Virus record (IMG/VR): IMGVR_UViG_3300001533_000474
Coordinates: 1-20,287 of that record
From: a virus
Reading direction: 5' to 3' (one strand)
DNA: 20,287 bases
The notes beneath the pieces were generated by a model that worked only from the letters and a program-made list of their open reading frames with translations, searched no databases and had not been told where the DNA came from. Below are positions 8,331 to 19,219 of this stretch, piece after piece (the first letter of the stretch is position 1; each line of letters opens with the position of its first letter). A program made the position numbers and the translations under genes.

Positions 8331-9608
8331 TCACTGCTGCCTGGCATTGCGCAAAATCGTCTGAAAGTCGAGGACTATGGGTTCGCCAGGTGCATACGTT
8401 TCATCGTCGAGGATCTTGCCGGTCTTGCCATCGACCAACATAACCCGCTGGCCCGGGTGCTTTACCTGCGCCAGTATCTGCTGCGTCAGTGACGCCACAT
8501 CCAGTTCTGCCGCTTGGCCCGCTGGTCCCGCCTCGCCACGATCCCCCTTCGGACCTTGCGGACCGCGGAATCGATCGTCGCCTTCGATCGTCTGCAGAAT
8601 GGACTCGGTGACTGCCGCTAGATGCATTGCGTTTACGGTGCCGTCAGAACCGTCTCGGCCATCCTTGCCAGCTTGTCCCGCTGGTCCACGGAAACGTTCA
8701 TCGCCCGCCATCTTTTCCAGTACTGCTGCAATGATCGCATCTTGGTCACACTTGCAATTCGGTGACTGCGGGGCACTTGGTACAAGCTCCAGTGCAGGTG
8801 GTTGTGCTGGCGTTGGTTGCCCGCCTGGATACGTCGCCACGCCACCGCCTTGCCTCGGTGCTGGGCAACCCTGTGGTGGACATTGCGAGCCGTAGCCGAT
8901 ACCGGCAATCTGCCCTGCAATTCGATTAGCTCGCCACTGGGCCAAGCGCGGAAACAGCGGGCGGACGAAGACCGTGAATCTCCCCGTCCCGCTCGCCGTT
9001 GTCCGCTGGCCGTCACTTCCCCAAAGGCATCCGATTAGCTGGCCCGCTTCGTTGAATGCCGGCCCGCCCGAATCGCCTGGGATCGCCGCGTTCTCATGCT
9101 CGAACCAATCCCGCGTTGCTGTGCCGCCAGGTCCAGCCCACGAACCAGTCATCCTTCCGCCGAAGATCCGGAAGCCCCGCGCGAAGCCCGCCGAGTACAC
9201 CATTTCGCCCGCTTGCGGGTTGCTGCTCGCGAACTCGACGCCCGTCAGCGTTGGGTGCTCGCGCTCCAGCTCGACCACGCACTGGTCCCACACCTTGTCG
9301 ACCTGAATCACTTTGCAGCTCATCCGCACGCCATCGCGAAATTCAACCGTTCCATTGCCGCTACTGCCTCGAGCCACATGGTAGGCCGTCGCTACGAGCC
9401 GCTCCCCCAGGTAGACGCCGCTGCCTGCGCTAGCCGAGCTGCCCGAAAGCGGGAAACGAATCTGCACCGCGTTGGCCGCTGCCTGCTCAACCGGTCGAGT
9501 CGCCGTCTCTTGCACTCGCCACTGTGTCAGCCCGCGATCGTCCGCGACGTCCTGGGCAGCCGCCAGGCCGCAAAGCAGCATCGTGATAATCAGTAGCGAA
9601 CGTATCAT
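8331..9608 (-). CDS. Exported trypsin-like serine protease with collagen-like repeats
   Basis: Residues 1-19 form a signal peptide (MIRSLLIITMLLCGLAAAQ). Residues 45-230 match the S1/chymotrypsin fold: the catalytic triad is readable as His77 in ATAYHV, Asp108 in VWDQCVVEL and Ser180 in PGDSGGPAF. A Pro/Gln-rich linker with CPPQGCP follows. Two copies of a helix-plus-GDxRFRGP unit come next, each leading into Gly-X-Y collagen triplets (GPAGQAGKDGRDGSDG and GPQGPKGDRGEAGPAG). The C-terminus is a small globular piece. The enzyme would act outside the cytoplasm, on periplasmic, envelope or surface proteins, and may trimerise through the collagen units. It starts with an ATGA overlap on the DUF1353 gene. 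Whether it is a lysis, virion or secreted factor is inferred only. Confidence 0.88.
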   Translation of the reverse strand: MIRSLLIITMLLCGLAAAQDVADDRGLTQWRVQETATRPVEQAAANAVQIRFPLSGSSASAGSGVYLGERLVATAYHVARGSSGNGTVEFRDGVRMSCKVIQVDKVWDQCVVELEREHPTLTGVEFASSNPQAGEMVYSAGFARGFRIFGGRMTGSWAGPGGTATRDWFEHENAAIPGDSGGPAFNEAGQLIGCLWGSDGQRTTASGTGRFTVFVRPLFPRLAQWRANRIAGQIAGIGYGSQCPPQGCPAPRQGGGVATYPGGQPTPAQPPALELVPSAPQSPNCKCDQDAIIAAVLEKMAGDERFRGPAGQAGKDGRDGSDGTVNAMHLAAVTESILQTIEGDDRFRGPQGPKGDRGEAGPAGQAAELDVASLTQQILAQVKHPGQRVMLVDGKTGKILDDETYAPGEPIVLDFQTILRNARQQ

Positions 9609-11419: not shown

Positions 11420-11927
11420 TTTCAAGCCTTCCAGTTAAAATAGGGTGCGACTGCATCTGTGTTTCTCCTGGCAGATAGGCATAGGCTTCATCACTTAAAA
11501 CCTGCCCATGCAGCCGCTGGTACGCTCTTAAAAACTCTCCGCGTATCCATTTCTCCTCCGTAGCATCGGTAAACCGCCAAACAAAAGCGGGCCACCCACC
11601 GAGAGCACGAATCACCGCATTAATCGTTACGTCGCGGAAAGCAATATGCTTGTAAGCACCGAGTGACACTGCACTTTGAGCATCCATCCAGGCTAGTTCC
11701 GCGCGAGCCTCGCTAGAGCCCTCAACCAACTCTCGAAGCTCTACTGGCTTCGGCATGAACTTGCATCGCTGCATAGCTAGCACCGCCGCTCGCTGAATAT
11801 CTGCAAGTTGCATGTCTTGCAATCCCCACCAGTACGCGAGAAACAATTGCTTGGTTGCCTCCTTATCGAACGCGGAAAAAAGTGATTCTACGATTTCCCT
11901 AAACGCGATCTTGTCCGATGCTTCCAT
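11331..11927 (-). CDS. DUF6475-like phage protein, possible helicase-loader counterpart
   Basis: The ATG at 11927 sits eight bases after a near-perfect AGGAGGTGAT sequence. The product has a helical N-terminus (FREIVESLFSAFDKEATKQL, AYWWGLQDMQ), then the marker MPKPVELRELVEG. A second domain follows with SLGAYKHIAFRDVTINAVIR, ALGGWPAFVWRF and EEKWIRGEFLRAYQRL. The KPxELR plus GGW...F...Y pattern resembles DUF6475, a domain often encoded next to phage replication initiators. By position it occupies the place of lambda P or DnaT, so helicase recruitment is a reasonable inference. The last 30 residues overlap the HNH gene and may be an extension gained when that gene arrived. Confidence 0.65.
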   Translation of the reverse strand: MEASDKIAFREIVESLFSAFDKEATKQLFLAYWWGLQDMQLADIQRAAVLAMQRCKFMPKPVELRELVEGSSEARAELAWMDAQSAVSLGAYKHIAFRDVTINAVIRALGGWPAFVWRFTDATEEKWIRGEFLRAYQRLHGQVLSDEAYAYLPGETQMQSHPILTGRLESEQRRVSTVSRQSALAVNQKAQACIGVLR

Positions 11928-12729
11928 CTCCATCACCTCCTATCGCTTGCAAGAATTCCTCTCCCGCCTGTTGTGTGTTAGCGAGCCGCTGTTGTGTAAA
12001 CGTCGTAGGCCCAGCTCTTACGCTAGACTCCATCCACGCCGCCTCAAATCCTCGCCACTCCTTGCCAGCAGCAATGACAATCGCTTCGTTGAGCGAAATC
12101 CCCGCCTTTGCCGCCTCGCTCGCGATCCGCTGCATTGCGGTCGCGGTTGGCGGGCCTACGCGGTGCTTCTTCTTCCGGACGTGCAGCCAGTCATCCCATG
12201 CTTGCTGGTCAACATTGCTTGGTCGGCTAGCCACTGCCTTCTTGGAGGTAGACGCACCTGGGATGGAATCACGGCATTCCTCATTCAGGATTCCACATTC
12301 AGGATTCAGGATTCCACATTCAGGATTCAGAGCGGGCTCGTTCATGCCTAGGTCGTTGCTTGCACCTACCTGGGTAGGTGCTTGTTCGTGCCTAGGTTGT
12401 GGTTCTGCTTGTTTCCCTGGTAATTCGCTACTTTTTTCCTTCACGTGTGGCCGCTGATGCTTGAGAAATTTGGGAATTGCGATGATTTTCACGCCGCCAA
12501 CGTCGTAGCGCTCTATCAAGCCCCACCTTGTGAGCTCGCCCAAGTGCTCGTCGATGTTTACGTTATCGTAAGGAAAGACCTGCGCTTTGACCTGCTTGGG
12601 TCGGTCTAGTAATCGCCCTTCCCGGTCTGCGCAGCACCAAAGTCCGACAAATAACAACCTAGATACGGGCGAGCACTCACCTAGGTCGGGGTTTGTGAAA
12701 AAAGACGGTTTTATGTTTCGGGCTCGCAT
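11899..12729 (-). CDS. Phage replication initiator with N-terminal winged-helix domain
   Basis: The 276-residue frame starts at ATG 12729, four bases after AAGGAGGGG. Residues 1-110 match phage O-like or DnaD-associated initiators: NIKPSFFTNPDLGECSPVSR, LLFVGLWCCADREGRLLDRP, KQVKAQVFPYD, then GLIERYDVGGVKIIAIPKF and HQRPHVKE. The middle is a variable linker with repeated NPECGIL. Residues 175-240 form a second helical domain (WDDWLHVRKKKHRVGPPTAT) that resembles the C-terminal part of such initiators. It would bind the origin and recruit the helicase system. The linker-coding DNA contains tandem 21-bp repeats and a palindrome, so the origin may lie inside the gene. A strong promoter and a structured leader precede it. 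Confidence 0.8.
   Translation of the reverse strand: MRARNIKPSFFTNPDLGECSPVSRLLFVGLWCCADREGRLLDRPKQVKAQVFPYDNVNIDEHLGELTRWGLIERYDVGGVKIIAIPKFLKHQRPHVKEKSSELPGKQAEPQPRHEQAPTQVGASNDLGMNEPALNPECGILNPECGILNEECRDSIPGASTSKKAVASRPSNVDQQAWDDWLHVRKKKHRVGPPTATAMQRIASEAAKAGISLNEAIVIAAGKEWRGFEAAWMESSVRAGPTTFTQQRLANTQQAGEEFLQAIGGDGDGSIGQDRV
12274..12330. repeat. Iteron-like tandem 21-bp repeats, candidate replication origin
   Basis: About 2.7 copies of a 21-base unit with core ACATTCAGGATTC are arranged head to tail. Copy one (12274-12294) is imperfect, copy two (12295-12315) is complete, and copy three (12316-12330) is cut short but exact. They encode the NPECGIL repeats of the initiator linker. Direct repeats at this point of an initiator gene match the organisation of the lambda origin within gene O. 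Confidence 0.6.
12362..12381. repeat. 20-bp palindrome beside the iteron-like repeats
   Basis: GCACCTACC and GGTAGGTGC are perfect inverted arms around TG, 31 bases from the repeats. CCTAGGT sequences flank it on both sides (about 12347 and 12391), and another occurs at about 12681. In the putative origin it could be a protein-binding or unwinding-associated element. Confidence 0.5.
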
Positions 12730-12755
12730 TTCCCCTCCTTGCACCATCCAAAAAC

Positions 12756-12819
12756 ACGGGCAGCCGGTTTGACGTACGCAGAGCAGTTGCGGAGAGTAAA
12801 AACTCACCCGGCTGCCCGT
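12756..12819 (-). promoter_or_regulatory. Structured leader of the replication gene (12-bp inverted repeat)
   Basis: ACGGGCAGCCGG (12756-12767) and CCGGCTGCCCGT (12808-12819) are exact inverted repeats separated by 40 bases. In the minus-strand transcript the stem would lie in the 5' leader, 26 bases before the initiator start codon. The loop contains a smaller GAGT-TTTT-ACTC hairpin and GACGTACG. A role in controlling initiator synthesis is a reasonable inference; an operator pair is the alternative. Confidence 0.55.
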
Positions 12820-13112: not shown

Positions 13113-13118
13113 AAAAAA

Positions 13119-13296
13119 CCTTGCCTTGCCCTGCCGAGCCGTGCCATGCCCAGCCGCGCCGTGCCCAGCCGCGCCGCAAAGACCACAGCGACCTATTCGC
13201 CCGCAATGGCCTAACCATGCCTAGCCTTGCCCAGCCGCGCCGTGCCCTGCCATGCCCTGCCTTGCCAAGCCTTGCCTTGCCGTGCCTTGCCATGCC
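13119..13296 (-). repeat. GGCNN pentanucleotide array A
   Basis: Read on the minus strand, the entire gap between two genes consists of GGC followed by two variable bases, repeated with a strict 5-base period. The array begins directly after the TAA stop at 13297 and ends in AAGG before the next start. The only interruption is the 44-bp core at 13178-13221. A 5-base period shifts codon frame each unit, so this is not coding sequence, although all frames are largely open. Confidence 0.8.
13178..13221. repeat. 44-bp core repeat, copy 1
   Basis: This non-pentameric segment, starting AAAGACCACAGCGACC and ending CTAACCATGCC on the plus strand, is identical to 13837-13880. GCGA and TCGC inside it could form a small hairpin. 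It sits in the middle of a GGCNN array in both places. Confidence 0.85.
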
Positions 13297-13743
13297 TTAT
13301 CTCTTCAACACCTTAACCACTTTTCGCGGTTCTTCCGGTGTAATATCTCGCCTGACTGTTTTAAGCATTGTGAGAATCCGCGATTGCCTGATGATTGCCT
13401 TGCTGTGATCCTCTCTTGCTTCCTTGCCTAGCTCACCAACGTCAACAGCATTCAGACGCCTGTTGCATCGCCGCATTTTGTCAATCGCAAGATCAAATCG
13501 GCTCTCGTTGTATTTGCTTGCTTCCTCATGCGTCAAAACTTGCACTTCGCCGTTGGTTGTGCGAACAGTCAGATGCTTACCAAGTCGCCATAGTGACTTT
13601 TGTATGAAGTCGCCGAGCTGCATCAACGCAAATTGATATGCGTACTCATTGCCAGTTCGCTTAATGCCTACAATACTCTCGCACTCGGACTGCTCAACCG
13701 TTGTACCCGGTTCAAGCACACGAACATCGATGTCAAATTTCAT
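13297..13743 (-). CDS. Phage protein of unknown function, 148 residues
   Basis: The ATG at 13743 is set by AAGGA seven bases upstream; the longer frame to 13845 merely translates repeat sequence. The N-terminus is beta-rich (MKFDIDVRVLEPGTTVEQSE), the middle has GNEYAYQFALMQLGDFIQKS, and the C-terminal half is a long charged helical region (SRFDLAIDKMRRCNRRLNAV, then RREDI-like Arg/Lys/Glu stretches) ending KVVKVLKR. It may bind nucleic acid given its basic end, but no motif proves it. It lies between two pentanucleotide arrays within the recombination/replication cluster, so its gene could have been exchanged as a unit. No family recognised. Confidence 0.65.
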   Translation of the reverse strand: MKFDIDVRVLEPGTTVEQSECESIVGIKRTGNEYAYQFALMQLGDFIQKSLWRLGKHLTVRTTNGEVQVLTHEEASKYNESRFDLAIDKMRRCNRRLNAVDVGELGKEAREDHSKAIIRQSRILTMLKTVRRDITPEEPRKVVKVLKR

Positions 13744-13767
13744 TCCTAGTTCCTTAAAGAGAAAAAA

Positions 13768-13930
13768 CCCTGCCTCGCCTTGCCCCGCCGAGCCTGGCCA
13801 TGCCTGGCCCAGCCGAGCCGTGCCGGGCCGTGCCATAAAGACCACAGCGACCTATTCGCCCGCAATGGCCTAACCATGCCATGCCATGCCAAGCCGCGCC
13901 GTGCCTGGCCGAGCCCAGCCGTGCCCAGCC
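13768..13930 (-). repeat. GGCNN pentanucleotide array B
   Basis: This second array occupies the upstream half of the 311-base gap between 13744 and 14054 and again surrounds a 44-bp core. It ends in GGGTTTTTT before the ribosome site of the 148-residue gene, a near match to the end of arrays A and D. Unit sequences differ from array A while the core does not. Confidence 0.8.
13837..13880. repeat. 44-bp core repeat, copy 2
   Basis: It is identical over all 44 bases to 13178-13221, although the flanking pentamers have diverged. The two copies bracket the 148-residue gene in direct orientation, 659 bases apart. Recombination between them would delete or swap that gene. Confidence 0.85.
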
Positions 13931-13934
13931 TCAA

Positions 13935-13980
13935 TTGACTGCTAGGGATTCGCACCCATGCACGCTCAAGCGACAGTCAA
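13935..13980. other. 46-base folded element between arrays B and C
   Basis: TTGACTG and CAGTCAA form a perfect 7-base outer stem. Inside it are two small hairpins: GGG-ATTCGCA-CCC and CGCT-CA-AGCG. On the minus strand the first loop reads TGCGAAT, similar to a tRNA T-loop. It is the only non-repeat sequence between the two arrays. It may be a structured RNA or a remnant of an insertion. Confidence 0.4.
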
Positions 13981-13983
13981 CAC

Positions 13984-14054
13984 CTTGCCTCGCCTCGCCT
14001 GGCCCCGCCCCGCCCCGCCGAGCCGTGCCCTGCCGGGCCTGGCCATGCCAAGCC
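13984..14054 (-). repeat. GGCNN pentanucleotide array C
   Basis: The array starts immediately after the TAA stop of the 188-residue gene (TAAGGC) and continues with 5-base period to GGCAAGG. It has no 44-bp core. Its start and end match the pattern of the other arrays. Confidence 0.75.
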
Positions 14055-14621
14055 TTATGCCAACTCAAACCGCCCGTAGCGCGGCCTGAAATCTCCTAGC
14101 CCAACCTTCGACCCCGCGTCCTCAATTGCTCGCGAAACATCACTCTCGTTAACCTGCTCGTCGTCGAACGCCAGCACAAACTCCATCGACCACTTGTAGA
14201 AGATCGGCCGAGTCCGCATGACCCGCGAAGTCCCAATGCGAACACCGCGAACATCCCGGTACTGATCGTCGGCCCATAAATCGCTGGCCTTGTCGTACTT
14301 CTTGCCAATGTCCAAGACCGCATCCGAATCAACAAAAACGGCAGATTTAAAAGCCTTGCCGAGCTTCGATTTCTTTGCGCCGTCGTAAACACATGCCTCG
14401 ATGCACGTTGATGGCATGATAATTTTCTGCTCGCCGTTGACATACAGGCCAGCATGCCATTCGATGCGACTCATTTCCGCGTAATCTTCATCCGTCTTTT
14501 TCCGCTTGCCGCTAATCTCCTTCATCTGCCTTGCAAATTTGTTCGTTGGATCTGCTGTTTGCCCGTTGTGCAAGAGCAGTGGACTAACACCGACAATCGA
14601 AACACTTAAATGCTGTAACAT
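14055..14621 (-). CDS. Conserved-type phage protein, 188 residues, possibly RAMP/Cas7-like fold
   Basis: The ATG at 14621 follows GGGAG by five bases. The N-terminus reads SIVGVSPLLLHNGQTADPTN, then KFARQMKEISGKRKKTDEDY, a charged helix. A central segment has QKIIMPSTCIEACVYDGAKK, and the C-terminal third has RGVRIGTSRVMRTRPIFYKW and finally VGLGDFRPRYGRFEL. I associate this layout with a phage protein encoded near recombination genes. The Gly-rich ending and alternating strands recall RAMP (Cas7-like) proteins, but this is a visual similarity only. It sits between a repeat array and the helix-turn-helix gene. A single-strand nucleic-acid binding role is plausible but unproven. Confidence 0.7.
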   Translation of the reverse strand: MLQHLSVSIVGVSPLLLHNGQTADPTNKFARQMKEISGKRKKTDEDYAEMSRIEWHAGLYVNGEQKIIMPSTCIEACVYDGAKKSKLGKAFKSAVFVDSDAVLDIGKKYDKASDLWADDQYRDVRGVRIGTSRVMRTRPIFYKWSMEFVLAFDDEQVNESDVSRAIEDAGSKVGLGDFRPRYGRFELA

Positions 14622-14640
14622 AAAAACTCCCAGTTAAAAA

Positions 14641-14663
14641 ACCTTGCCAAACCTTGCCATGCC
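14641..14663 (-). repeat. Short GGCNN array D
   Basis: Only about four units separate the TAA at 14664 from AAGGTTTTTT ahead of the 188-residue gene. It shares both ends with arrays A-C and seems to be the minimal form of the same element. Confidence 0.65.
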
Positions 14664-18515: not shown

Positions 18516-18705
18516 CACGTCCCTCTCTGGGTAAATCAGGTAACTCAATCCAATGCGTAACAATTCCCCCGCAATGCCACTCGCCACTCGGCAGCATGTG
18601 CGACACAATCATTGTCTCGTTCGGCCGCAGCACCAGCACATCAACCTCCGCTTCTGGTCTGTACAGCTTTGCGTCCATCCAATCTGGGTCATACCACTGC
18701 ATCAT
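18502..18705 (-). CDS. DUF551-like small phage protein
   Basis: The 67-residue product has the short pattern EVDVLVLRPNETMIVSHMLP, then GGIVTHWIELPDLPREG. The combination of a strand ending in V, a Gly/Trp-containing turn and THWxxLPxLP resembles the DUF551 family, small phage proteins of unknown activity. AGGTGCAAC before the ATG supports the start. It overlaps the Gly-rich repeat gene by 17 bases and the next gene by 14, so it is part of a continuous early operon. Confidence 0.65.
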   Translation of the reverse strand: MMQWYDPDWMDAKLYRPEAEVDVLVLRPNETMIVSHMLPSGEWHCGGIVTHWIELPDLPREGRDEAE

Positions 18706-19219
18706 GTTGCACCTTTTTTAAGATTTCATCGACCTGCTCTTGTGTGATCTCGACATCATGCGACTCCGCAATGGACTTCCATCGCTTTCGCCATTCAGCG
18801 ACAGACCATGTTTGGCAGCCAATCACGACAATCTGGAACACCCTGATGAACAGGACAGTGTGCCCAGCGATTTCCGTGATCACATCGCCGTAGCCGTGGC
18901 CGTAGCCGTCGCCGTCGCCGTGGCCGTGGCCGTGGCCGGAGCCGTAGCCGTAGCCGTAGCCGGAGCCGTCGCCGTAGCCGGAGCCGTAGCCGGAGCCGTA
19001 GCCGTCGACGTCGCCGGAGCCGTAGCCGTCGCCGGAGCCGGAGCCGGAGCCGTCGCCGGAGCCGTAGCCGTAGCCGTAGCCGGAGCCGTAGCCGGAGCCG
19101 TCGCCGGCTACGGAGCCGTGGCCGTAGCCGTAGCCGGAGCCGGAGCCGGAGCCGGAGCCGTAGCCGGAGCCGGAGCTGTAGCCGGAGCCGGAGCCGGAGC
19201 CAGTTAGCAAGCTTTCCAT
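18689..19219 (-). CDS. Gly-X dipeptide repeat protein with conserved C-terminus
   Basis: After MESLLT the first 110 residues are Gly alternating with Ser, Tyr, Asp or His (GSGSGY, GYGYGHG, GDGSGSGSG and similar). The last 60 residues are ordered: ITEIAGHTVLFIRVFQIVVI, then GCQTWSVAEWRKRWKSIAES and a closing helix. Proteins with a GxGxGxG repeat joined to a domain with IGCxxxxxxxWxxxWxxIA occur in phages, without known activity. The Tyr/Ser/Gly-rich part could self-associate or form a flexible condensate-like phase; that is inference. It is encoded by a tandem repeat prone to length change. GAGG lies about ten bases before the ATG. Confidence 0.7.
   Translation of the reverse strand: MESLLTGSGSGSGYSSGSGYGSGSGSGSGYGYGHGSVAGDGSGYGSGYGYGYGSGDGSGSGSGDGYGSGDVDGYGSGYGSGYGDGSGYGYGYGSGHGHGHGDGDGYGHGYGDVITEIAGHTVLFIRVFQIVVIGCQTWSVAEWRKRWKSIAESHDVEITQEQVDEILKKVQHDAVV
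18887..19200 (-). repeat. Hexanucleotide tandem repeat encoding Gly-X
   Basis: About 52 six-base units run continuously. On the minus strand each is GGC plus TAC, TCC, GAC or CAC, so Gly is fixed and only the first two bases of the second codon vary. A few units depart from this set (GTC, AGC, GCC). Six-base units keep frame when copies are gained or lost, so length variation would not abolish the gene. Confidence 0.9.

Follow-up and report, generated by a model that had tools for sequence, protein, structure and literature searches.

Evidence for a VIPR locus, closest to type II, in an uncultivated phage

Genes and repeat arrays of the window

The window, by which we mean the whole stretch of 20,287 nt analyzed here (IMG/VR record IMGVR_UViG_3300001533_000474), carries arrays of a GGCNN pentamer on its minus strand, situated directly downstream of the gene termed vipr and of the next gene and on the same strand as both (Table 1). 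The five long arrays keep a strict 5-base period: GGC is constant in 65 of their 65 units, and the NN positions are close to maximally diverse (entropies of 1.77 bits at position 4 and 1.97 bits at position 5). No first-order Markov shuffle of the window (n = 200) contained more than 4 consecutive units; the repeats are genuine and greatly exceed what chance would give. A first-pass annotation of this DNA had recognized the minus-strand periodicity, with GGC and spacing kept while the other bases vary, and had proposed that the pattern rather than one sequence is conserved, all of which proved correct, as did its closings of GG plus a T-run (GG followed by TTTTTT at 13769–13762, 13120–13113, and 14643–14636). 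It had counted four arrays filling whole intergenic gaps; in fact, there are five long arrays and one 4-unit run, and the gaps are interrupted by two identical 35-nt copies and one different segment (13984–13931). The identical 35-nt segments are bordered by arrays with different NN pairs, so that NN differs where the segment does not. A two-tier G-quadruplex (GG every 5 nt) was set aside by reasoning, as every unit has a C right after its GG and C also occurs among the NN bases.

Table 1. Features of the array-bearing region (window coordinates)
Feature	Position	Strand	Description
vipr, 188-aa RAMP protein	14055–14621	-	phrog_4652; profile match to PDB 36pp, predicted fold
Short 4-unit run	14644–14663	-	GGCAT GGCAA GGTTT GGCAA, then GGTTTTTT; upstream of vipr; too short for a full guide
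Array 1, putative guide	13985–14054 (14054–13985)	-	14 GGCNN units; begins right after the vipr TAA
Separator after array 1	13931–13984	-	By eye tRNA-like (TTGACTG...GGTGCGAATCC...CAGTCAA)
Array 2, putative guide	13876–13930 (13930–13876)	-	11 units
Hairpin tail copy 1, GCGAATAGG loop	13837–13871 (13871–13837)	-	Identical 35-nt copy; fold z = -3.49; covariation
Array 3, putative guide	13770–13834 (13834–13770)	-	13 units; then GGTTTTTT at 13769–13762
Candidate vap (accessory) gene, 148 aa	13297–13743	-	Remote homologue of the SUSP1 gene adjoining vipr
Array 4, putative guide	13217–13296 (13296–13217)	-	16 units; begins right after the TAA of the vap candidate
Hairpin tail copy 2, GCGAATAGG loop	13178–13212 (13212–13178)	-	Identical 35-nt copy; fold; covariation
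Array 5, putative guide	13121–13175 (13175–13121)	-	11 units; then GGTTTTTT at 13120–13113, then ATG of the next ORF

The vipr product belongs to a protein family listed in PHROGs as of unknown function and has no Pfam match, and its family profile matches a single relevant solved structure, the “SUSP1 Vipr protein” of PDB 36pp (E = 2.9e-48). The phiSUSP1 protein is a homologue with 40% identity. An AlphaFold2 model of the window protein (pLDDT 96.5) has as its best Foldseek matches in the PDB the RAMP subunits of CRISPR systems (Csm/Cmr/Cas7-type, E down to 9.1e-06). Toward the C terminus, G170, G174, and R179 are near-invariant and G183 is invariant, and the conserved glycines would fit a glycine-rich loop. 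Judged by profile and predicted fold, the protein is a Vipr-family small RAMP protein.

The next gene (13297–13743) is remotely homologous to the gene that adjoins vipr in SUSP1 (profile E = 2e-8; 93% probability in hhalign), and homologues of it adjoin vipr at other loci as well. We take that SUSP1 gene to be vap1 by its position, which makes the window gene a candidate vap1-like neighbor of vipr. Genes around the arrays include a replication/recombination block with an exonuclease VIII-like gene, a DNA polymerase exonuclease subunit, and a replication initiator; a search for the host by means of the exonuclease, carried out in two phyla, returned only distant matches (best, 34% identity).

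Other ORFs of the window contain repeats of a different kind. A 52-copy GCCGTA hexamer array (18887–19201) lies inside a minus-strand ORF (18689–19219) that would encode a glycine/serine/tyrosine-rich repeat protein, and 21-nt repeats (12283–12330) in the replication-initiator ORF (11899–12807) encode a repeated NPECGIL motif. By eye, the minus-strand ORF 8331–9608 resembles a trypsin-type protease whose C-terminal half carries collagen-like G-x-y stretches.

Linkage of array and gene across relatives

Relatives were gathered in two ways, by the repeat and by the gene. Scanning IMG/VR with the repeat alone found at least 120 viral stretches, 120 of which were used as array-selected loci, and a further set (n = 80) was fetched through relatives of the vipr product. 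Among these relatives, the unit generalizes to GGYNN, its third base being C or T. Same-strand GGYNN arrays occur in 76 of the 80 protein-selected loci, all of them on the vipr strand. In the reverse direction, among the matches listed, 85 of the 120 array-selected viral loci have a vipr-family gene, and in 83 of those 85 the arrays near the gene lie on the vipr strand. This reciprocal linkage indicates that repeat and gene belong to one system, and the approximately 160 array-plus-vipr loci so gathered test the link between gene and repeat independently, in both directions, among uncultivated phages. Bacterial genomes contain the same repeat pattern mostly as arrays of low NN diversity, with a vipr-family gene in only 2 of 120 loci. 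Also in phiSUSP1, GGY arrays occupy the gaps around the vipr gene. Among the matches listed, 35 of the 120 viral GGCNN-array loci (L003 to L122) are without vipr by profile; some of these end at contig or locus edges, and others may be divergent VIPR types.

The position of the arrays relative to stop codons is less regular than the window suggests. TAA-GGC openings, which the first-pass annotation had presented as a shared plan, do occur at two of the long gaps and at the short run (14663–14644), but they are not general: over 131 vipr genes, the distance to the downstream array has a median of 30 nt and is ≤1 nt in only 9. An array abutting the stop codon is thus a local trait of this window, and the suggestion of a mobile repeat that targets stop codons is unsupported, since arrays track vipr and mostly do not abut a stop codon. 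The idea of inert RNA spacers is likewise unsupported, the arrays tracking vipr on its coding strand.

A role as boundary elements in recombination had also been proposed, and this reading, or one of hot spots where phages exchange genes, draws some credit from the location of the arrays in gaps of the recombination/replication block and from a gene order around vipr that differs between the window and a relative, L243. Such elements, however, need no partner gene, invariant strand, or covarying hairpin, whereas the arrays follow one gene family, on its coding strand (83/85 and 76/80 loci), in diverse phages. We consider this explanation unsupported and extremely improbable.

Comparison of two relatives, L243 and L244, bears on the turnover of the arrays. 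Their vipr genes are 94.6% identical and their vap homologues 97%; identity falls to 75% and 85% in the two array gaps, whose alignments contain 194 and 15 gap columns, a divergence that would be as expected of fast-changing guides. Some relatives (L300 and L297) contain recent multi-unit duplications, implying that units can arise by duplication, with NN changing afterwards; this course fits retargeted guides without proving them. The same duplications, together with the pure pentamer repeats that exist in bacterial genomes, could be read as neutral slippage, that is, as functionless tandem expansion. Fresh slippage, however, would leave units that are all alike, whereas these arrays combine an invariant GGC with a near-random NN and are linked to one gene and strand. 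The invariant GGY and the gene linkage already contradict slippage, and since arrays recur in many relatives, they are not products private to this phage. The probability left to this explanation is negligible.

Hairpin tails and separators

For the 35-nt segment, the hairpin fold scores z = -3.49, and the L243 and L244 counterparts fold more strongly (z of about -5). Across six distinct sequences of the tail, 94.9% of cells are paired versus 64% in shuffles; because members of this same set supplied the structure, this share is favored, although the derivation does not explain changes on both sides of a pair, which are found in 12 of 13 stem pairs. The set reaches a covariation score of 0.985, compared with 0.357 in shuffles, and sliding the partner abolishes the signal. 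The GCGAATAGG loop is nearly invariant. A structured 3′ tail is therefore present, with both fold and covariation, after arrays 2 and 4; it is weak after array 1, where the separator folds no better than shuffles (z = -0.81), and no hairpin was seen after arrays 3 and 5, both of which end in GGTTTTTT. A tRNA or other known RNA was dropped as an explanation of these segments, ARAGORN and Rfam having returned no match in the window or in 16 relatives.

Two further separators were noted among the relatives. In L243 (1466–1600) and at the corresponding place in L244, the arrays are followed by a tRNA-like element with 7-bp acceptor-like ends and a GTGGGTTCGATCCCCAC arm; it is 100% identical between the two despite their differing arrays and is unrecognized by ARAGORN and Rfam. 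Another recurring separator, with the sequence GGGCTGCAGACGGCAGCACGGAGG and a long hairpin, has no Rfam match and is situated downstream of vipr in L259, L260, L270, L300, and similar loci, lying between arrays in many relatives.

Relation to VIPR and to other RNA-guided systems

The first-pass annotation knew of no named family with this structure; the GGY/NN plan is, however, that of the vrRNAs of VIPR (Viral Interference Programmable Repeat), an RNA-guided DNA recognition system carried by phages and described in a 2026 preprint (PMC13142463). VIPR comprises a small RAMP protein, vrRNAs of 9 to 16 YNNGG repeats with a structured 3′ tail, and the genes vipr plus vap; NN pairs read the DNA, and one target base is passed over between one pair and the next (PMC13142463). 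The Vipr protein is a RAMP homologue with an RRM core, a G-loop, and a thumb, and seven types have been published, of which the SUSP1 clade is type II (PMC13142463). Several parts of VIPR recur at the locus described here, where we observe a protein of Vipr family and fold, arrays within the range of 9 to 16 repeats with hypervariable NN, their linkage to vipr and position beside it on its strand, a tail hairpin supported by covariation, and a neighboring gene resembling vap1. The window almost certainly contains a VIPR locus that most resembles type II, and its arrays are best read as guide RNAs with NN pairs that address target DNA. The likeness to type II draws on SUSP1 as the characterized relative and on the putative vap1-like neighbor, and the locus adds to VIPR a member that comes from an uncultivated phage and has a distinctive hairpin between its guides.

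Transcription, processing, DNA binding with a 1-nt skip, and repression of a competitor are inferred from PMC13142463. By analogy, the array gaps would be transcribed and cut into vrRNAs, each consisting of a GGY/NN run and a structured 3′ tail; Vipr subunits would coat the vrRNA by gripping its GGY parts, leaving NN pairs to base-pair with double-stranded DNA with one unread target base between successive pairs; and the complex would repress the bound gene, typically that of a competing phage or satellite. In phages, VIPR probably serves to silence rival phages.

Applying the published 1-nt-skip rule, each array yields a gapped target. Exact patterns spanning 10 units of each of the five guides, and a further pattern of 9 units, found no match in IMG/VR, and arrays 1 and 4, at ≤3 mismatches, found no target in 392 genomes of one phylum (that of G001), chosen without firm host evidence. 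Neither was there an excess at any skip length when 400 guides were compared with 3.6 Mb of fetched loci on both strands with skips of 0 to 3. Given the small search space, these negatives have little power and neither support nor refute DNA targeting by this locus; five defined guides are now available for seeking prey.

A different use of the same protein-RNA pairing also has to be weighed. TRAP is a multimer that binds (G/U)AG-N2-3 sites in RNA, a triplet-plus-spacer design with a period of about 5 nt whose spacers hold no target information. The window repeats share this triplet-plus-spacer plan, as judged by description, although TRAP is a different protein; TRAP-like wrapping, an early lead to an RNA-binding partner, was superseded by Vipr. 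Still, the arrays could be binding platforms on the phage's own mRNA, where a protein coating GGY would regulate expression or protect the transcript and NN would be uninformative. Their same-strand position between genes, their near-random NN, and the lack of a DNA target in the collections searched all suit such platforms, but the same protein family with such repeats has been shown to use NN for programmable DNA recognition (PMC13142463), and we regard mRNA platforms as highly improbable.

Relative to type II VIPR of the Escherichia phage SUSP1 clade (PMC13142463; PDB 36pp), the locus described here agrees in its Vipr family (E = 2.9e-48), in arrays of 11 to 16 GGY/NN units on the coding strand around vipr, in the vap1-like neighbor, and in structured segments after arrays 2 and 4. 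It differs in the Y base, which throughout the long window arrays is C but in SUSP1 is mostly T, and in its tail, a hairpin with a GCGAATAGG loop that does not resemble the tail sequence of SUSP1. CRISPR-Cas class 1 RAMP effectors (Csm3/Cas7 type) are alike in fold class (Foldseek E down to 9.1e-06) and, by analogy, may be alike in forming an oligomer on a guide RNA whose pairing is interrupted periodically; CRISPR guides, however, are contiguous spacers, whereas the window guides are gapped 2-nt words. Membership in CRISPR-Cas is not supported: the tandem repeats of the window include no CRISPR direct repeat/spacer array and the ten window proteins scanned include no Cas family. TIGR-Tas (PMC12045711), found in phages and bacteria, likewise targets DNA by RNA guides encoded in a tandem array, but its protein (Tas) and its guide design are different. 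VIPR is reported to read DNA via a gapped code and has been proposed as an ancestor of CRISPR RAMPs (PMC13142463).

What is new here may be limited to the tails and the array layout, as opposed to the system, and the tail family backed by covariation is one contribution of the locus set. The order array-hairpin-array-GGTTTTTT leaves two of the five arrays (3 and 5) without a hairpin of their own, unlike the vrRNA plan of PMC13142463. The window shows this layout two times, and L243 and L244 have comparable versions of it; we tentatively suggest, as a possibility rather than an expectation, that it constitutes a vrRNA architecture absent from the main text of that preprint, in which a single GCGAAUAGG hairpin serves the guides on either side of it or the final guide is matured with no hairpin, and in which one tRNA-like separator might recruit host tRNA-processing enzymes.
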